Of a DNA stretch of 41,182 bases, positions 6,770 through 29,924 are shown piece by piece (the stretch's first letter is position 1; each line of letters opens with the position of its first letter). Where the stretch lies: contig JAHELC010000012.1 of assembly GCA_024644405.1 (NCBI GenBank), forward strand, positions 1-41,182, given 5' to 3'. A program made the position numbers and the translations under genes. The notes beneath the pieces were generated by a model. The model was not told where the DNA came from. It did no database searches and saw nothing but the letters and a program-made list of their open reading frames with translations. This stretch comes from Nitrospinaceae bacterium (GTDB taxonomy: Bacteria > Nitrospinota > Nitrospinia > Nitrospinales > Nitrospinaceae).

Positions 6770-7876
6770 TTAAACAATCACGTTACGGCCCATGGCCGCT
6801 TCAATCGGTTCGCGCGCCATGTCCAAAGCCGCTTTATGCGGAAATGTCTTTTCTTCGCGAACCCGCCGGAGAACTTCCTTTGTGTTGCGCCCGATGGTTT
6901 CGCGAATGGCGGCAAAGGCATCATCCGCCGTCAGGCCCTGGTACTCCGTGGCGGCGCAAATCACTCCACCGGAGTTGGCGATGATATCGGGAATGATCCA
7001 GACACCCCGGTTATGAAGTTTTTCAGCCGCTTCACGGGTGATCGGAATATTCGCTCCCTCCAGTACCAATTGGGTGTTCAACAAATGTTGATTCAACTCC
7101 GTGAACACGTCCGGCCGTGCGGCGGGAATGAAGAGTTCCGATTCCATGGCCAGCAGGGCATCCCGCTCCATCGATTCACCCAACCGGGAGTCCGCGACTT
7201 TCCCTCCCGTTGCAACGAATTTAATCAGGGAAGGAATGTCAATTCCTGCGGAATCGTGAAGCGTTCCCTGGGAATCATTAACGGCAATCACCTTGACGCC
7301 CCGCTCCAGCAGGAATTTTGCCGCAGCTTTACCGACATTGCCAAATCCCTGGATGACCGCACGCGCATCTTTGAGCGATAAACCGATGGCATCGCTGGCG
7401 ACATCCGCCGCCACCGCGACGCCGTAGCCGGTCATACCCAACTCATCCAGCGGCAGGCCCCCGAGCATTCGCGGCAGGCCGACGGCGCGTCCGATTTCTT
7501 CATGCACCCAGGCCATGCTCTGCTCGTCGGTTCCCATGTCGGGACCCGGGATGTAACTCTTGAGTTCCCGAATGGCCCGTGCAAAAGCCCGCACCAGCGT
7601 CTCCTTCTCGGGGGATCGCGGGTCCGCCAGGATGCCGGACTTGGCGCCGCCGTGCTTCAGACCGTTCACGGCATTCTTCAGCGTCATGGCGCGTGCCAGA
7701 CGGAACACCTCGCGCGTGCTGACGTCCGTTGCCATACGGGTACCGCCGATAGCGGGACCCAGAGCCAGGTTATCGATCGCGACAATGGCCCGTAACTGGG
7801 TCTTGGGATCGTAAATGTGAATAATTTGTTCCGGGCCGAATTCATCGGCGAAGTTGTCTATGTATTGCGTGAACAT
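6770..7876 (-). CDS. Glu/Leu/Phe/Val dehydrogenase family, NAD(P)-dependent
   Basis: About 368 residues; it interconverts an amino acid and its 2-oxoacid plus ammonium. The N-terminus (EQIIHIYDPKTQLRAIVAID, then LGPAIGGTRM) resembles leucine dehydrogenases. The catalytic pair of lysines is present (MTLKNAVNGLKHGGAKSG; 12 residues apart), as are the catalytic Asp in PDMGTDE and the dinucleotide loop QGFGNVGKA. The later EGANIPIT..IIPDIIANSGG stretch is more like glutamate dehydrogenases, so the substrate is ambiguous. The ATG at 7876 has AAGGGG at 7-nt spacing and gives an N-terminus aligned with LeuDH; an ATG at 7894 overlaps the acd stop (ATGA) but has no SD. It is the last gene of the por-acd operon, suggesting it feeds or drains the oxidoreductase's 2-oxoacid. 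Confidence 0.88.
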   Translation of the reverse strand: MFTQYIDNFADEFGPEQIIHIYDPKTQLRAIVAIDNLALGPAIGGTRMATDVSTREVFRLARAMTLKNAVNGLKHGGAKSGILADPRSPEKETLVRAFARAIRELKSYIPGPDMGTDEQSMAWVHEEIGRAVGLPRMLGGLPLDELGMTGYGVAVAADVASDAIGLSLKDARAVIQGFGNVGKAAAKFLLERGVKVIAVNDSQGTLHDSAGIDIPSLIKFVATGGKVADSRLGESMERDALLAMESELFIPAARPDVFTELNQHLLNTQLVLEGANIPITREAAEKLHNRGVWIIPDIIANSGGVICAATEYQGLTADDAFAAIRETIGRNTKEVLRRVREEKTFPHKAALDMAREPIEAAMGRNVIV

Positions 7877-7890
7877 GTCCTCACCCCTTT

Positions 7891-10026
7891 TCATGAATTA
7901 GGAACCTGAGTGATTTTGGCATCCAGAACCACCAGTTCCTTTTCGTAAAGCCGGACTGGATTGAAATCCAGCGACAGGATATCGGATTCGGAGATCATCC
8001 AGTGCGCGGCCCATTTCAAAAAGGCCAACAGTTTTTGGGAGTCCAGTTGGGGTTTTCCGCGAAACCCCTGAACGATGTTCCATACTTTCGTTCCCCGGAC
8101 GGCTCTCAGAATTTCTTCATCCGTAGCGGGAAGGACCCGCCGCACGATGTCCTGATACAGTTCGACGTAACTGCCGCCGGTTCCGAACAGGAGTACCGGG
8201 CCGAACTGCGGATCGCGGTGGGCGCCCACCATTAAGTCCAGGCCGGGCGGCATTTGCTGTTCCGCCCACACCTTCCCCGGCCAATCCGCGTAAAAAGCCT
8301 CCCACTCGCGGAGTAGATTTTTCTCGTCATTCAGATCGAGTCGTATCCCTTTCATCTCGGTTTTGTGTTGGATGTCCGGTCCCACTGCCTTCAACGTCAG
8401 AGGAAACCCGATACATTCAGCCGCCCAGTGAATGTCTTCTTCACTATTCACATGGATATGTTGCGGAACCGAAATATTGCACCGGCTCAACAGGTTTTTA
8501 ATTTGCATTTCGTGCGGATTTCGGTCCACGGACCGCAGCCAGTGCAGAGCCGGCGAAGTGTCAAATGGAATCTGGGGTTCCGTGGCGGTTGCAGGAGATT
8601 CACGCATCCACCGCGATTGCTGGACCAACAGTTCCAAACCGTGCGCCGCACGTTCACCGGTGGGGAACACCGGAATGCCGCTTTCCTGCAAACCCGAACC
8701 CAGCGAGTCGAACAAAGAACCGTAGGCGCCGACCGCGACCGGCAGATTTTCCGGCAACCGGGATTTCAGCAGCGGGCCGATGTCCGCAGTGATGCCTTCC
8801 GTGCCCGGCATCAACACCAGGAGCAGTGCGTCGTGCTCTCCGGTCTTCAGCAGATATTCCACGATAGAGACGCATTGCTCGTTGGTGCCGGAACCGGTCA
8901 GGTCAATGGGATTGCGGAACGAATAATAAGAGGGATACTGTCCCTTCAGGATGGATTGGTATTTCGGTGAAGGTTCAGGGATCCGGAGTCCTGCCTGTTC
9001 GCACAGATCGGTCAACAATACTCCCATGCCCCCGCCGTTGGAGACCACCAGAACGCGGTCTCCCCGGGCTTTCGGTTGCCCGCTGAACAGTTGCAGGGCA
9101 TCGACCATTTGTTCCAGGCCGTTCACTTCGATCATCCCGGTCTGTTCGCAAGCCGCCTTGAAGACGGAATACGATCCCGCCAGCGAAGCGGAATGGGCGA
9201 GGGCGGCCTGCCGGCCCCTTTCGGCTTTACCTCCCTTGAAGACCACAACCGGTTTTCGGCGGGCAACGGCGCGCGCCGTTTCCATAAACCGGGGACCGTC
9301 CTGCACGCTTTCCAGGTACAGTCCAATGACACGTACCTGTGGATCCCGTGCGAACTCTGCGAGTAATTCGCATTCACCGATGTCGATGCGGTTGCCGAAA
9401 TTGACCGCGCGATGCACGCCGACTCCGCGTTCCCCGAGATCACTCAGCATGTGCATCAGGAAGGCTCCGCTCTGGGAGATGAAAGCGACCGAACCCGGAT
9501 GCGGCAAGGTCAGCTCTTCCGGTTTCAAAAAGAAACTGTTGAATCGATCCAGCGCGCTGAACACCCCCATCCCATTGGGACCGATGATGCGAATGCCCAG
9601 GTGTTGTGCTTCTTCCTGAATTTGATGTTGCAGAATTTCTCCCGCTTCACCCGTTTCCGAAAATCCCCCGCTGATGATGATCAGGTGGTGGATCCCTTTG
9701 GCCGCCAGCGGTTTCAGAAGAGGTAAGACTTTTGAGGACGAAACCGCAACGATCGCGAGATCCACCGTTTTGGGTAAACCTTTAATATCTTTCACCACCG
9801 GGCAATCAGACACGGCGCTCCCTGTGGGATGAACTGTTGTAACCGTTCCGCCGTATTTTTGGTGCAACAGGCTTTGAACGATGTATTTTCCCAGGTTCCC
9901 TTGTTTGGGCGAAGCGCCGATGACCGCCACCGACCGGGGAGCAAAAAAAGGACGCAAATCCAATTGTTCATCCCTGATCTCAGGGTGAGGGTGTTCATGG
10001 GTTTCTTTAACAAGAAGTTCACTCAT
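7891..10026 (-). CDS. NDP-forming acyl-CoA synthetase (acetyl-CoA synthetase, ADP-forming type), alpha-beta fusion
   Basis: 711 residues. The enzyme couples acyl-CoA + ADP + Pi to acid + CoA + ATP through a phosphohistidine. Domains in order: CoA-binding Rossmann domain (VAVIGASPKQGNLG, 33-46); two succinyl-CoA-ligase-like flavodoxin domains (GPNGMG 149-154; FISQSGA 182-188); the phosphohistidine motif HSASLAGS with H278; then an ATP-grasp domain (about 505-711) with FPLTLKAVGPDIQHKTE, GPVLLFGTGGSYVEL and LDFNPV. This is the alpha-then-beta fusion found in many bacteria and archaea. The ATG at 10026 overlaps the end of porB by 8 bp (ATGAGTGA), implying coupled translation; the frame upstream of it reads shadow sequence. 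Neighbours suggest its acyl-CoA comes from PorGDAB. Substrate breadth (acetyl, branched or aryl) cannot be read. Confidence 0.92.
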   Translation of the reverse strand: MSELLVKETHEHPHPEIRDEQLDLRPFFAPRSVAVIGASPKQGNLGKYIVQSLLHQKYGGTVTTVHPTGSAVSDCPVVKDIKGLPKTVDLAIVAVSSSKVLPLLKPLAAKGIHHLIIISGGFSETGEAGEILQHQIQEEAQHLGIRIIGPNGMGVFSALDRFNSFFLKPEELTLPHPGSVAFISQSGAFLMHMLSDLGERGVGVHRAVNFGNRIDIGECELLAEFARDPQVRVIGLYLESVQDGPRFMETARAVARRKPVVVFKGGKAERGRQAALAHSASLAGSYSVFKAACEQTGMIEVNGLEQMVDALQLFSGQPKARGDRVLVVSNGGGMGVLLTDLCEQAGLRIPEPSPKYQSILKGQYPSYYSFRNPIDLTGSGTNEQCVSIVEYLLKTGEHDALLLVLMPGTEGITADIGPLLKSRLPENLPVAVGAYGSLFDSLGSGLQESGIPVFPTGERAAHGLELLVQQSRWMRESPATATEPQIPFDTSPALHWLRSVDRNPHEMQIKNLLSRCNISVPQHIHVNSEEDIHWAAECIGFPLTLKAVGPDIQHKTEMKGIRLDLNDEKNLLREWEAFYADWPGKVWAEQQMPPGLDLMVGAHRDPQFGPVLLFGTGGSYVELYQDIVRRVLPATDEEILRAVRGTKVWNIVQGFRGKPQLDSQKLLAFLKWAAHWMISESDILSLDFNPVRLYEKELVVLDAKITQVPNS

Positions 10027-10972
10027 CGTACTGCTCCCAGTAAGCATCCACGTTGCTCTGGATCTGCGCGATGATGTCGTCGCGCCGTTTTGGAGCAAAC
10101 AGGTGATGGAACCGTTTTTGCCGTTCCAGATATTTTTCCACCGGCAGGCGTTTGTGCGGCCGTTTCGTATGAGTGACTTTGCCGTCCACAAACTCCTTGA
10201 TCGGAAAGATACCGGTATCCACCGCCAGTTTGGCGATGAGGTGCGTGTCTTTCGGATCGAATCCCCAACCGGTCGGGCAGGGGGACAGGCAGATGAACAG
10301 CCGCGGCCCTTTCATGGCCTTTGCCTTTTTAAATTTGTTGGACAGGTCGATCGGCTCGCGCGGCGATACCGTGGCGATGTATGGCGGATTGTGCGCCATC
10401 CAGATGCCGAACAGATCTTTCTTGGTCCGCTCGGAACCCGCCGGATGTTCCGGCGTGTCCGGACTGGTCATCGTGTGACTGCCCAGAGGCGACGCGCCGG
10501 ATTGCTGGAACCCGGTGTTGCCGTACGCCTCGTTGTCATAGCAAAAGTAAATGAAATCGAGGTTGCGGTGAATCGCCGCTGAAGTGGGGCTGAGGCCCAT
10601 ATCGTTCGTCGAGCCGTCTCCCGCGACCACGATAACCTGCAGGTCTTCCTTTTCAGGCAGTCCGTGTTTGTGCATGCGGATGTCCAGGGCATCGCGCACC
10701 CCCTGGGCCGCCGGCACCGGACCGCTCATGGTGGTATACAGCCACGATCCCTTCAGCGGCGTAAACGGGTAGACGGAGATCAGTGTGAAGCACCCCGCCG
10801 CGTTACACGTCAACGTGTTTTCGCCCAGGACTTTCATGGCGAGACGCATCCCTTCCAGACCGCCGCACCCGGCACACAGGGCGGAACCCGGTGCGATTTC
10901 CTCTTCAGGGTTCAAGTCGGTAACTTTTTTATATTTGGATTCCTCAAGGGAATCGGGAATGGTGGCCGTCAT
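10019..10972 (-). CDS. porB: 2-oxoacid (pyruvate-type):ferredoxin oxidoreductase, beta subunit
   Basis: 317 residues; binds thiamine diphosphate and the proximal [4Fe-4S] cluster. Seen: cluster cysteines in LCAGCGG (C33, C36), NAAGC (C61) and CLSPC (C228/C232), the ThDP/Mg motif AGDGSTNDMGL (117-127), and NEAYGNTG (147-154), all typical of PorB/VorB. The extended C-terminus (from about residue 250; RPHKRLPVEKYLERQKRFHHL) is like PorB rather than the shorter OorB. The reaction is oxidative decarboxylation of a 2-oxoacid to acyl-CoA with reduction of ferredoxin, or reductive carboxylation in reverse. Start overlaps the porA stop by 4 bp (ATGA). Pyruvate is the most likely substrate, but 2-oxoisovalerate-type use is possible given the neighbours. 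Confidence 0.93.
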   Translation of the reverse strand: MTATIPDSLEESKYKKVTDLNPEEEIAPGSALCAGCGGLEGMRLAMKVLGENTLTCNAAGCFTLISVYPFTPLKGSWLYTTMSGPVPAAQGVRDALDIRMHKHGLPEKEDLQVIVVAGDGSTNDMGLSPTSAAIHRNLDFIYFCYDNEAYGNTGFQQSGASPLGSHTMTSPDTPEHPAGSERTKKDLFGIWMAHNPPYIATVSPREPIDLSNKFKKAKAMKGPRLFICLSPCPTGWGFDPKDTHLIAKLAVDTGIFPIKEFVDGKVTHTKRPHKRLPVEKYLERQKRFHHLFAPKRRDDIIAQIQSNVDAYWEQYDE

Positions 10973-12213
10973 TGGACGCGAGCCTCCCTGGAAAATCCGG
11001 CAATTTGCCGGAGTTGATCGAATTGTTTAAGATCCTTTTCATCAAACAGGAACAGCGGATCGTCGCCGGGTTCCTCATCCAGTCGCTGCAGGATATTCAT
11101 GAAATCTCCTGCCCGAATATCCCGGCCGCCCAAACCGCCGATCACCGAAAGCAGATGCTGTGGACGGTCCTCCCGCCGGTAGACCGCTTTCAAAATTTCC
11201 GGATAGAGGATGCCGCCCATACCCGGCGCCAGGTTCTGATCGATCACTGCGACTTTGGGCCTCTGCGCCAGGGCCTCCGCAATGATCTGGGACGGGAACG
11301 GACGCAGGAGGCTCAGTTTGAGCAGGCCGGCTTTGATGCCGTTCTTGCGCAGATGCTGTACCGCGGCCTTGCCCTTGGTGGCAAAAGAGTTGCTCATGAC
11401 GAAAACATATTCCGCGTCATCCAGCCGGTAGCGCTCCACGGCATCGTAAAAGCGTCCGAACCGGTCGCTGAATTCCTGAGTGATCTTCCGGTAAATGTTC
11501 ACCACGTTTTGTGCGGCCAGGTGATGCTGAATTTTGAAGTAGGAATAATTGCCGCCCCCGAATACCGCCGAAGCACGTGCCATGGGCTCCGAGGCCTGGA
11601 ACACCGGCTGCGACGGTTTGAACAGCGGCAGAAATTCTCTCACTTCCGCTTCATCCGGTATCACCACCGGTTCGCGGGTGAAGGACAGGTAGAACCCGTC
11701 CAGGTTGACCAGCACCGGCAGGCACACCTCGGGATCTTCCGCGATGCGGTAGGCCATCAGGATATAATCGAATACTTCCTGGGCGGTTTCCGCGTGCAAT
11801 TGAATGATGCCGGTGTCGCGCAGACTCAACACGTCATTGTGATCCGGTTCCAGCGTAATCGGCGTCGCCAGCGCGCGTGACACATTGACCAGAACCAGCG
11901 GCACACGCCAACCGGCGATGGTGTGCAGGGCTTCCAATCCATACAAAATTCCCTGACTGGAGGAAGCGGTGAACACGCGCACACCGGAAGCGGCCGCCGC
12001 ACCTGCCGCCATGAACATCGAATGTTCGGAATCCATGTTGGTGTACTTGCCGTGCATGTGGCCATCGGCAAACCATTGCGACAGGGTTTCGACGATTTCG
12101 GTTTGCGGGGTGATGGGAAATGCCGGCACATAATCAACTCCTGCCAGCCGCGCACCCCAGGCCGCCGCTTTATTCCCCGTTAACATGATTTGTTTTTTGC
12201 CGGTCAGTTCCAT
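10969..12213 (-). CDS. porA: 2-oxoacid (pyruvate-type):ferredoxin oxidoreductase, alpha subunit
   Basis: 414 residues. The N-terminal pyrimidine-binding domain carries AFPITPQTEIVE (31-42), with the conserved substrate-contacting TP; DSEHSMFMAAGAAAASG (61-77) has the catalytic Glu that activates thiamine; and TASSSQGI follows. The domain II/III part (from about 240) holds the typical FVMSNSFATKGKAAVQHLR and KLSLLRPFP segments seen in PorA. It pairs with PorB to complete the active site. It overlaps porGD by 10 bp at its start and porB by 4 bp at its end, so the three subunits are almost certainly co-translated. No frameshift or missing motif is visible. Confidence 0.94.
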   Translation of the reverse strand: MELTGKKQIMLTGNKAAAWGARLAGVDYVPAFPITPQTEIVETLSQWFADGHMHGKYTNMDSEHSMFMAAGAAAASGVRVFTASSSQGILYGLEALHTIAGWRVPLVLVNVSRALATPITLEPDHNDVLSLRDTGIIQLHAETAQEVFDYILMAYRIAEDPEVCLPVLVNLDGFYLSFTREPVVIPDEAEVREFLPLFKPSQPVFQASEPMARASAVFGGGNYSYFKIQHHLAAQNVVNIYRKITQEFSDRFGRFYDAVERYRLDDAEYVFVMSNSFATKGKAAVQHLRKNGIKAGLLKLSLLRPFPSQIIAEALAQRPKVAVIDQNLAPGMGGILYPEILKAVYRREDRPQHLLSVIGGLGGRDIRAGDFMNILQRLDEEPGDDPLFLFDEKDLKQFDQLRQIAGFSREARVQ

Positions 12214-13112
12214 GATTCCACCTCTCGTATAATTTCAATGGCGTGCTTGGGACACTCCTCCACACAAATCAGGCACCCTTTGCAGTGATCGTAATCGATC
12301 ACCGGTTTATCGTTGGCATCCATCCGGATATCCCCTTCCGGGCACCGGGCGTAACAGATGCCGCACCCGTTGCATTGTTCGTTGTGGACGACCGGACGGT
12401 GAGTCCGCCAGTTGCCGGTTTTGCGTTGGGCCATGTTGCCCGTGGCAAAAATGAGCGGAGCCGAATCGACCGGAGGCCGGCGCTCCAGGATAACCAACCG
12501 GCTGGCCGAGAATCCGTTGTCGGATTCGCTGAATTCCAAATCAAACGAAGGCGCTTTTTGAAAGACCTCCTCGGCCAGTGTCAGGTTGGCGGCAATTTTT
12601 TCGGGGTTGATGCGTCCCTGCCCCAACTCCTCCCGAATCGCCTGAAGCAGATGATGCAGATCGATATGGCCCATCAAACGCACACCTACGGCCGCAAGCG
12701 CCGTGCTGAGAATCATCGGTTTCTGGATGTATTTCTGGCACAGCTCGGAAATGTCCAACTGAACCGGAAGCGACTCTAAGTGGTAATGTTTTTTGAGATC
12801 CTGCGACGTGTGCCGGGAATTGATAAAGATAAGAGTGGACGCGTCGGTGCCCTGGGTGACTGCGGCCATGGGGTCGGACAACAAAGTTTCATCGCCAATC
12901 AAAAGAATATCCGGCTGGGCGACGGGACCCCGCTCCAACACAATATTTTTGCTGAACCGCGCATAAGCGACAATGGGGGCTCCCCGACGTTCCGCACCGT
13001 ACAAAGGAAAATCCTGGGCCTGAAATCCGGCCAGGTGTGCCGCCGTACCCAGAATCTGGCTGGCAGTTTTGATCCCCTGTCCGCCGCGACCATGTAATCT
13101 TATCCGAAGCAT
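12204..13112 (-). CDS. 2-oxoacid:ferredoxin oxidoreductase, fused gamma-delta subunit
   Basis: 302 residues joining two subunits that are often separate. Residues 1-190 are the gamma domain (MLRIRLHGRGGQGIKTASQIL, YGAERRGAPIVAYARFS). Residues ~240-302 are the delta ferredoxin domain with two [4Fe-4S] motifs, C247xxC250xxC253xxxCP and C277xxC280xxC283xxxCP. A ~50-residue linker separates them. The ferredoxin domain relays electrons from the ThDP site to external ferredoxin. It is the first gene of the operon; AGGAT lies upstream of the ATG at 13112. The likely role is electron output (or input, for CO2 fixation) of the PorAB complex. The gamma-delta fusion is known in other bacteria. Confidence 0.92.
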   Translation of the reverse strand: MLRIRLHGRGGQGIKTASQILGTAAHLAGFQAQDFPLYGAERRGAPIVAYARFSKNIVLERGPVAQPDILLIGDETLLSDPMAAVTQGTDASTLIFINSRHTSQDLKKHYHLESLPVQLDISELCQKYIQKPMILSTALAAVGVRLMGHIDLHHLLQAIREELGQGRINPEKIAANLTLAEEVFQKAPSFDLEFSESDNGFSASRLVILERRPPVDSAPLIFATGNMAQRKTGNWRTHRPVVHNEQCNGCGICYARCPEGDIRMDANDKPVIDYDHCKGCLICVEECPKHAIEIIREVESWN

Positions 13113-13481
13113 GTGATCCTACTTTCTTTAGTTTTTAACTCCTGGGCCGGGTTATTCAGCTTTCCAGTCCAGGAAATGAAGCTTTTAAAATCAATTGTTT
13201 AATTAAAAAACCGCAAAGTTTCAAAACAACTGCCTATTTATAATATGAAACCGTAGAAGAGATTTTTCCATCAATTCGGATACGGGAAAAGTGCCAATTT
13301 TGGGAGATAAAAAGGGGAAAATCAGGAGTTCGAGAGGGGACCCATATATAAATTAGCCAATTTCAGACCTTTTGGTTGGGAAATGTTTTGCTTTAAACCC
13401 AGCCTTCGGGGCTCTTGAGGGATTCGAAATCCAGGATTGCCTGAACTGAGAAACTCAATATTTTTGAAGCAATTAAAGAAG
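13113..13481. other. AT-rich intergenic region upstream of the por operon
   Basis: This is the upstream side of the minus-strand por operon and of the plus-strand coiled-coil gene. TATAAA-like hexamers are present on the minus strand (around 13230-13240) but none has a convincing -35 partner. A short AGCC-TTCG-GGCT hairpin occurs near 13401-13412. No gene or RNA was recognised. Confidence 0.45.
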
Positions 13482-13509
13482 TTGACTCCTCAGTAATATG
13501 CGTTAAAAT
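13482..13509 (+). promoter_or_regulatory. Sigma-70-type promoter for the coiled-coil/TPR gene
   Basis: TTGACT (13482-13487) and TAAAAT (13504-13509), each five of six consensus bases, are 16 bp apart. They lie about 200 bp before the start codon, implying a long leader. Confidence 0.5.
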
Positions 13510-13572
13510 TTTTTTATACCTGTTTGTATAAGAGTAGAATCTAGGGAAAGTGCGTTGAGATTTCATCGCTTA

Positions 13573-13592
13573 TATACCCGTCTTGGGGTATA
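13573..13592. promoter_or_regulatory. Palindrome in the leader, possible operator or hairpin
   Basis: TATACCC (13573-13579) and GGGTATA (13586-13592) form a perfect 7-bp inverted repeat with a 6-bp spacer. It sits between the promoter and the start codon of the 13708 gene. A further imperfect hairpin (CCTGT/ACAGG, about 13644-13661) overlaps the purine-rich segment just before the mini-ORF. Confidence 0.4.
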
Positions 13593-13672
13593 CTAATTAA
13601 TTCTGTCTCCCTATAGTGAAATCAACGGTTTTTTTTTCGAGCCCCTGTATTCATAAACAGGAGGGGGGCCGC

Positions 13673-13708
13673 TTGACCCACTCAATTTTTGTTTTCGGAT
13701 CAAATTAA
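13673..13708 (+). CDS. Possible 11-codon leader mini-ORF ending on the start codon of the coiled-coil gene
   Basis: The strong Shine-Dalgarno (AGGAGGGGGG, about 13659-13668) precedes a TTG at 13673 rather than the ATG at 13708. The TTG frame reads MTHSIFVFGSN and stops in TAATG, sharing one base with the ATG of the next gene. The ATG itself has only a weak GGA upstream, so initiation there may depend on re-initiation. Confidence 0.3.
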   Translation: MTHSIFVFGSN

Positions 13709-26820: not shown

Positions 26821-28020
26821 TTATTGACCCAGCGAAGCTGTGACCGTTTTAAGGGTTTCCACCGCCGCATGCCCGGAGCCGGCATCGCCCGACCCGAACA
26901 GGGATAAAAAAACACCCGCCGCGACGGCACTGCCAATCACACCCGCCACGTTGGGGCCCATAGCGTGCATGAGCAGGAAATTGGTTTTGTTGGTTTCCTG
27001 TCCCACTTTTTGCGACACCCGCGCGGCCATGGGAACAGCCGACACTCCCGCCGATCCGATCAGCGGATTGACCTTGCCTCCCGAGGTGATATACATAATT
27101 TTGCCGAACAACACCCCGCCGGCGGTTGCCATGCAGAATGCCAGCAGGCCCAACACAATGATCTTGATGGTATCCGAGGTTAGAAACGTTTCCGCCGTCA
27201 TCGAAGAACCCACCGCCAGCGCCAGCAGGATAGTCACTATATTGATCAAATGGGTCTGCGAGGTTTCATGCAGACGCGCCGTGACTCCGGATTCCCGGAA
27301 CAGATTGCCCAGCATGAACATTCCCATTAACGGTGCGACTCCCGGAAGCATCAATACAATCACGAGGGTCGAAGCGATGGGAAAAATAATTTTTACCGTC
27401 GGCGAAATCGGTTTTAATTGCTCCATTTTGACGGCGCGTTCTTTTTCCGTGGTCAGCAGGCGCATGATGGGCGGTTGAATCATTGGCACCAGCGACATGT
27501 AGGAATAAGCCGCCACCGCAATTGGGCCCAATAAGTGAGGCGCCAGTTTGGCCGCCAGGAAGATCGATGTCGGCCCGTCGGCGCCGCCGATGATACCGAT
27601 AGCAGCGGCTTCCTGCAGGTTGAATCCCAGCGCCACCGCCCCGATGAGGGTCGTATAAACTCCGATTTGTGCCGCCGCGCCCAACATCAGGGTCGAGGGA
27701 TTGGCCAGCAGGGGACCAAAATCGGTCAACGCCCCGACACCCAGAAAGATCAGCGGGGGCAGAATTTCGTGCCGCACTCCAAAATAAAAAAAGTTGAAGA
27801 GCCCGCCTTCATTGGTATTGGCCATCATGCTGAGCGGCAGGTTGGCCAGCAGGCAACCGAATCCGATGGGGAGCAGGAGCAGGGGCTCGAACTTTTTCCA
27901 AATGGCGAGATACACCAGAACCAGAGAAATGACGATCATCACTCCCTGACCGGGCGCGATTGCGATCAGCCCGGTGGAGTGGAAAATTTTGCTGAGTGCT
28001 TCCTGAAAACTAAAATCCAT
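26821..28020 (-). CDS. oadB: Na+-transporting oxaloacetate decarboxylase, beta subunit
   Basis: 399 residues, about eleven hydrophobic segments; the Na+ channel and carboxybiotin decarboxylase. Conserved segments include [35 protein letters not shown] (written here across two pieces; the Asp of GGADGPT couples Na+ and H+), and [15 protein letters not shown], then [19 protein letters not shown]. Its start codon shares one base with the oadA stop (TAATG), so the two are co-translated. It could also serve a methylmalonyl-CoA decarboxylase, but OadA nearby supports oxaloacetate. Confidence 0.93.
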
Positions 28021-29816
28021 TATGCAATATGAATGAGTTCATCGCCGGTCTGGACGTTCGCGCCTTCTTGCACCAGGATGGAGTTGACAGTTCCACTGTG
28101 AGGAGTGTGCACCTCAGTTTCCATTTTCATGGATTCCAGAATCATGACTGTGTCCCCTTCATTCACCTGATCGCCCACTTTGCATTTCAGCGCAAACACG
28201 GAGCCGGGTAATGGAGAGGTGACGGCTTTGTTGGATCCGTTCGAGGAAGGCGCCGGAGCCGCCGCAGGCGCGGGTGCCGCTGCGGGTTGAGGGGCGGCCA
28301 CAGGAGCCGGGGCTCCCGCACCGGTTCCAACTTGTACCGAATAGGGTCTGCCGTTCACGGTAACCGTATAGACGGCTGGGCCACCGGCGGGTGCGGCGGC
28401 CGGGGCCGACGGCGCAGGGGGCGGAGCCTTGGCTGGTTGTGCCTGAGGAGCTGGAGATTCCGGCTCGGTATACGGTTTGCCGCGGGTTTCAAAAAATTTC
28501 AACGCGACCTTCGGAAACATGGCATAGGTCAGCCGGTCCTCATCATTCTTGGCCGCATCCCCCGCTTCTTCGACAATGGTATCCCATTCCGGCACCAGCA
28601 GATCGGCGGGACGGCAGTCGATCACCTTCTGGTCCTTCGCCACTTTCTCCAGCAGTTCCGGATCGATTTCCCCGGGCAGCTTTCCGTATTTTCCCAGCAC
28701 GCATTCGCGCGTTTCCTTGGTGATGATTTTATAACGCTCGCCGGTCAGTATGTTCAGGGTGGCCTGCGAGCCGACAATCTGGCTGGTGGGGGTGACCAAC
28801 GGCGGGTATCCTAAATCTTTCCGCACGCGAGGCACTTCTTCCAGCACTTCATCCAATTTGTCGAGGGCGTTCTGGTCCCGCAACTGATTTTCCATATTGG
28901 AGATCATGCCACCGGGGATTTGCGATTTGAGAATATTGATGTCCACGCCGACAAAATTACTTTCGAACCGGGCATAACTTTTGCGTACTTCCTTGAAGTA
29001 ATTGGCGATTTCTTCCAGGGCCTCCAGGTCGAGCCCGGTATCCCGGGGCGTACCCTTCAGGGCCGCCACCACACACTCGGTGGCGTAGTGGGAGGTTCCC
29101 ATGGACAGGGTGGAAATTGCGGTATCGACCATATCCAATCCCTCATCGATGGCGCACTGGATGTTCATTCCCGCCAGGCCGGTGGTCGAGTGGGTGTGAA
29201 GATGGATGGGAATCTTGATGGTTTTCTTGAGTTCACGGATCAGAGGTGTAGTGACCTGCGGGGTCAGCAGGCCCGCCATGTCCTTGATACACAGTATATC
29301 CGAGCCGAGGTTCACCAAATCCTTCGCCATTTTGATGTACAGCTCGATGTTGTGTAGCGGGCTGACGGTGTAGCTGATACACCCTTCCACGATGCCGCCG
29401 CATTTTTTGGCGGTTTTGACCGCGACTTCGATATTACGCAGGTCGTTCAATGCATCAAATATCCGGAAAATTTCAATTCCCACATCGTAAGATTGTTTGA
29501 CAAACCGTTCGACGATGTCGTCGGCGTAGTGCCGGTAACCGACACAATTCTGCCCGCGCAGCAGCATCTGGAGCGGGGTATTGGGTATTTTCTTCTTGAG
29601 TTGCCGGGCCCGTTCCCACGGATCCTCGTTCAAAAAGCGGATACAGGTGTCGAAGGTGGCTCCGCCCCACGCCTCTAGCGAGAAAAAACCGACGGCATCC
29701 AGTTTTTCCGCGATCGGGAGCATGTCCTCCGTTTTCATGCGAGTGGCTAACAGCGACTGATGGGCGTCTCTTAAAACCACTTCCGTAACTTTAAGAGGAT
29801 TCGGTGTTTTGTTCAT
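28020..29816 (-). CDS. oadA: Na+-transporting oxaloacetate decarboxylase, alpha subunit (biotin carboxyltransferase)
   Basis: 598 residues. The N-terminal HMGL-like carboxyltransferase domain has the metal Asp in [17 protein letters not shown], the catalytic Lys in CIKDMAGLL and metal histidines in [17 protein letters not shown] domain follows, then an Ala/Pro linker, then a biotinyl domain with ESMKMET carrying the biotinylated Lys near the C-terminus. It transfers CO2 from oxaloacetate to biotin; OadB then releases it while exporting Na+. The start at 29816 has AAGGA about 10 nt upstream; the in-frame ATG at 29849 lacks an SD. Pyruvate carboxylase subunit B is the other option, but oadB and oadG adjacent make OadA more likely. 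Confidence 0.92.
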
Positions 29817-29924
29817 TCCGAGTCTATCCTTATGGTAAAGCTTCCCCATTACAGGGGAACCCTGATTGTGTGAAATTAGGCTTTTCTATCTATTTGAGGA
29901 ATTGGAAAATCGAGTCTTTCCGAT

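Follow-up and report, generated by a model that had tools for sequence, protein, structure and literature searches.

In Pyrococcus and Thermococcus, peptide fermentation proceeds through deamination of amino acids, followed by the oxidoreductases POR, VOR, IOR and KGOR and by ADP-forming acyl-CoA synthetases (PMC3942289). The operon analyzed here shares with these archaea the chemistry of a 2-oxoacid:ferredoxin oxidoreductase followed by an ADP-forming acyl-CoA synthetase, but it differs in gathering every step, a dedicated non-glutamate dehydrogenase included, in one operon, in its fused porGD and fused acd, and in residing in an aerobic bacterial phylum. Nitrospina and Nitrospira contain a POR and an OGOR of the five-subunit type (PMC3578206), which share superfamily and genome with the operon enzyme. 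The operon alpha subunit, however, is 28–32% identical to these reductive TCA (rTCA) cycle enzymes, belongs to a porGD-A-B clade, and is linked to acd and a dehydrogenase. Leucine and phenylalanine dehydrogenases, members of the ELFV family of about 370 aa with a hydrophobic residue at the K89 position, resemble the operon dehydrogenase in these traits, although the latter is overall nearer to glutamate dehydrogenase (GDH) and displays an I49/G117/V311/A314 combination that is absent from the aligned solved enzymes. The porGDAB-acd clusters of ANME-1 and of Scalindua/Anammoxibacter share the PorA/PorB clade and the por-linked Acd clade, but in these groups acd is split in two, the dehydrogenase is absent, distant or divergent, and no islands of the Nitrospinota kind were seen. 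Six ANME-1/Methanophagales loci (L036, L037, L048, L060, L071, and L072) present a porGD-porA-porB-acd(alpha) arrangement, in contrast with the report of no acd for ANME-1 in the metagenomes studied (PMC7414198). In the literature searched, which took in few subscription papers, the operon has not been described in Nitrospina or Nitrospinota, and no precedent was found there for amino-acid-to-acid chemistry in one operon with its own non-glutamate dehydrogenase, kept in an aerobic nitrite-oxidizing order.

The window, that is, the whole stretch of 41,182 nucleotides analyzed, is contig C37 of a Nitrospinota MAG (2.98 Mb, 96% complete) whose named relatives are Nitrospinaceae/Nitrospinota. Profile matches assign the five genes to their families with E-values from about 1e-26 to 7.2e-115, and the features of the locus are as follows:

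13113–13707, AT-rich intergenic region of 595 bp upstream of porGD, which is divergent from a TPR gene
12204–13112, minus strand, porGD, 2-oxoacid:ferredoxin oxidoreductase gamma (POR) and delta (2x[4Fe-4S] ferredoxin) subunits fused in one chain (TIGR02175, 1.2e-34; TIGR02179, 9.8e-27; all 71 homologs retain the eight cysteines of the clusters)
10969–12213, minus strand, porA, alpha subunit (NF040682, 2.1e-106)
10019–10972, minus strand, porB, beta subunit with ThDP and proximal [4Fe-4S] (NF008819, 9.5e-76)
7891–10026, minus strand, acd, fused alpha-beta ADP-forming acyl-CoA synthetase of 711 aa (TIGR02717, 7.2e-115; PF13607; PF13549)
6770–7894, minus strand, "gdh", ELFV-family dehydrogenase of 374 aa (PF00208/PF02812)
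6742–6711, minus strand, intrinsic terminator after the last gene, "gdh" (12-bp stem and T6)

An earlier note on this DNA had read the five genes as one operon on one strand, followed by a terminator, and both the reading frames with their overlaps and the strong intrinsic hairpin are borne out. The overlaps amount to 10 bp between porGD and porA, 4 bp between porA and porB, and 8 bp between porB and acd, which starts at the ATG at 10026; a longer acd frame from a TTG, reaching 10191, is an artefact. The TGA of acd shares 4 bp (ATGA) with the first ATG of the dehydrogenase gene. The gene more likely starts at the next in-frame ATG (7876), leaving a 14-bp gap after acd; this codon is preceded by the ribosome-site-like sequence AAGGGGTGAGGA and coincides with the start of the homologs. 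The region at 13113–13707 presumably holds the promoter, and a sigma-70 consensus scan upstream of porGD returned matches no better than shuffles. Against two congeners, Ka/Ks ratios of 0.05–0.16 denote purifying selection on all five genes.

The earlier note had also proposed comparing gene order across related genomes, and conservation is extensive. The order porGD-porA-porB-acd-dehydrogenase is unchanged at 22 other Nitrospinales loci in four families (20 with the five genes whole, the remaining two running off a contig end), and it is hence not due to chance. The flanks of the operon in the window (TPR genes and modABC) are common to the closest congeners only, those of other relatives being different. 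Across 64 Nitrospinales genomes, porA and the dehydrogenase gene are both present in 26, both missing from 34, and discordant in four (two plus two). The two discordant genomes that were read contain eroded operons: one (G023, L170) retains only the dehydrogenase gene and the tail of acd, and in the other (G057, L171) porGD is missing, as is the 5' portion of porA.

The fifth gene had been taken for a deaminating glutamate dehydrogenase, and of that label only the superfamily stands. In E. coli GDH, the gamma-carboxylate of glutamate is held by a lysine and a serine, K92 and S380 (PMC8784811). The K89 and S380 equivalents in the operon enzyme are I49 and A314, and orthologs, archaeal and proteobacterial MAG copies included, carry I, L or V at the first position and A at the second. 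The resulting I49/G117/V311/A314 pocket is hydrophobic and of the leucine/phenylalanine type, with I49 aligning with a leucine of 6acf and 1leh, and the length of 374 aa falls within the range of about 350–375 expected of leucine, valine and phenylalanine dehydrogenases. The N-terminal substrate domain is best matched by leucine dehydrogenase (77 bits, vs. 46 for GDH), whereas the whole sequence and, less decisively, the predicted fold are nearer to GDH than to leucine dehydrogenase: an AF2 model (pLDDT 90) matches GDH with Z up to 48 and phenylalanine dehydrogenase with Z 41, and there is no leucine dehydrogenase among the 50 matches listed. The host genome encodes two K-bearing glutamate dehydrogenases elsewhere, and these paralogs, together with the pocket residues, are the grounds for rejecting the glutamate dehydrogenase label. 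The first reading of the operon, in which glutamate is deaminated, 2-oxoglutarate oxidized, and succinyl-CoA cleaved, can appeal to the ELFV fold and to glutamate dehydrogenases as top structural matches among those 50, but it has become highly improbable, given that both gamma-carboxylate ligands are gone in every ortholog read and that OGOR and succinyl-CoA synthetase are found together elsewhere in the genome. The host genome also encodes another ELFV dehydrogenase that lacks the lysine of GDH (GPGLGGIRM), in a 429-aa open frame (G000:C28:124510, L120).

The pocket and the leucine-dehydrogenase-like N-terminal domain point instead to a hydrophobic amino acid, and there is about an even chance that the operon constitutes a catabolic module for one or a few such amino acids. 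The fifth gene product would deaminate the amino acid oxidatively with a pyridine nucleotide, PorGDAB would decarboxylate the 2-oxoacid to an acyl-CoA while reducing ferredoxin, and Acd would convert the acyl-CoA, with ADP and Pi, to a free acid and ATP. A branched-chain or aromatic substrate appears more likely than alanine, and the module would probably operate in the catabolic direction, under oxygen limitation.

PorGDAB presents the features of a POR/VOR-type 2-oxoacid:ferredoxin oxidoreductase, with gamma, delta, alpha, and beta domains, a ThDP motif and three [4Fe-4S] clusters. The cluster cysteines are intact and invariant (the eight of PorGD and C33, C36, C61, and C232 of PorB), in agreement with the ferredoxin-reducing role initially proposed. 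Its substrate class is less sharply drawn. Pyruvate models outscore ketoisovalerate models for both PorA and PorB, but all scores lie far under the cut-offs, be it those of the pyruvate synthase (POR) equivalogs (PorA 356 of 550 bits, PorB 255 of 405) or those of 2-ketoisovalerate oxidoreductase (VOR; alpha 263 of 646 bits, beta 230 of 405). In the PorA and PorB trees, the Nitrospinota sequences group, with full support, with those of Nitrospira, anammox planctomycetes, and ANME-1 in a clade that is parted by a very long branch from 9bt4, the solved POR. One Nitrospira MAG (L044) carries two such porGD-porA clusters, separated by about 8 kb.

An alternative in which alanine is deaminated, pyruvate is oxidized by a catabolic POR, the second POR of the genome, and acetate and ATP are made from acetyl-CoA finds its best arguments in this enzyme. 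The solved structure nearest to PorA is 9bt4, a POR, and PorA retains the PITP threonine (T35) and R113, as in pyruvate-type enzymes and unlike oxalate oxidoreductase, which has an arginine in place of that threonine. Furthermore, in two ANME-1 genomes of unstated completeness the sole PorA-type oxidoreductase found belongs to the clade of the operon, suggesting that the clade includes pyruvate synthases and arguing against a hydrophobic substrate. Set against this, the dehydrogenase pocket is widened (G117, A314) rather than narrowed for alanine, the host already has another POR-type enzyme, and the otherwise invariant APAG core of the PorB loop at 83–88, which homology would place near the cofactor, has become PVPA in the Nitrospinales only. 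On balance, the alanine route is possible but doubtful. At one ANME-1 locus (L048), ilvC immediately precedes porGD, an arrangement as compatible with a supply of pyruvate as with branched-chain 2-oxoacids; in the same stretch (L048:3328-6800), two ORFs of ilvB/ilvN size accompany the confirmed ilvC directly upstream of porGD.

Acd combines CoA-binding, ligase, and ATP-grasp domains with both phospho-histidine positions conserved and, judged by these domains and residues, it is predicted to be an ADP-forming acyl-CoA synthetase, as the earlier note had held. The Acds encoded beside por genes in Nitrospinota, in ANME-1, and in anammox bacteria cluster together, but this grouping is weak evidence for a shared origin because the sequences were sampled by por neighborhood. 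In a proteobacterial relative, the dehydrogenase-porGDAB genes are followed by an AMP-forming fatty-acid-CoA ligase.

The remainder of the host genome bears on both role and direction. A heme-copper oxidase is encoded, in line with the aerobic or microaerobic bacterium supposed from the outset. An OGOR adjoins sucCD, another POR-type enzyme is encoded just outside the window, and an ATP-citrate-lyase locus is present, a set that fits the rTCA cycle reported for Nitrospina (PMC3578206). That cycle is thus served separately, making PorGDAB a third ferredoxin-dependent 2-oxoacid oxidoreductase. A fused PFOR on contig C22 was set aside as a fourth, being a likely contaminant: the contig (G000:C22, L116), of 9 kb, carries this 1645-aa protein and PEP-CTERM-like proteins and looks like contamination from another phylum. 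A search of the host genome for a genuine E1 2-oxoacid dehydrogenase found none, the best match reaching 29 bits. The genome also contains ilvC, and branched-chain synthesis therefore needs no reverse route through the operon.

In many relatives, the operon is part of a larger island: a formate-THF ligase gene precedes it, genes for carbamate kinase (arcC) and for a conserved protein without a name follow it, NfnAB is encoded divergently upstream, and subunits of a 3b (NiFe) sulfhydrogenase are also near. Fisher tests on the 64 Nitrospinales genomes, which ignore phylogeny and genome incompleteness, associate porA with arcC (p = 4e-5), NiFe hydrogenase (3e-6), and NfnAB (2e-4). With three ATP-forming enzymes and two reductant outlets, the simplest reading of the island is a fermentation kit, favoring a catabolic, fermentative operon. 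A conserved anaerobic energy island in Nitrospinota can accordingly be proposed, although tentatively and at less than even likelihood, in which fermentation through Acd, formate-THF ligase, and carbamate kinase would consume amino acids and perhaps also C1 and carbamoyl compounds, with ferredoxin passing electrons through NfnAB to NADPH and on to the 3b hydrogenase for release, allowing cells to survive in anoxic water and sediment. Hydrogenase and NfnAB are absent, at the thresholds used, from the window genome and its two closest relatives, so that the full island applies more to other relatives, where electrons could exit through NfnAB and the 3b hydrogenase, than to the window lineage, which lacks that sink. 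In the window genome, arcC and its partner lie on another contig (C1:94 kb; L163:8377-10665), beside putative membrane protein genes.

The island also weighs on the opposite direction, in which Acd would activate a free branched-chain or aryl acid, PorGDAB would carboxylate the product by means of reduced ferredoxin, and amination would then give an amino acid. In known families, all three reactions can run either way; moreover, the host, an autotroph of the rTCA type, has low-potential ferredoxin chemistry, and ilvC adjoins porGD in ANME-1. This route is nevertheless unlikely, because ilvC makes ordinary branched-chain synthesis available and the island neighbors in relatives are ATP-forming and reductant-disposing. 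The islands, the separate rTCA oxidoreductases, and ilvC together favor the catabolic direction for the operon.

A catabolic unit of this kind could help explain how the oxygen-dependent cells of Nitrospinota, a phylum known for marine, autotrophic nitrite oxidizers, survive without oxygen. Nitrospina-type nitrite oxidizers persist in anoxic sediments, and nitrite oxidation without oxygen is not known for them (PMC10060263). In N. gracilis, the genome analysis revealed a 3b hydrogenase whose role its authors called unclear; that stored glycogen is fermented was among the options named, as an unlikely one (PMC3578206). The operon, often near a 3b hydrogenase, NfnAB, and two ATP-forming enzymes, offers a concrete and testable energy route for such cells. 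Elsewhere in the window, two adjacent ORFs (26821–29849) resemble, by eye, a sodium-pumping decarboxylase beta subunit and a biotin-domain protein of the oxaloacetate-decarboxylase/pyruvate-carboxylase B-like kind.
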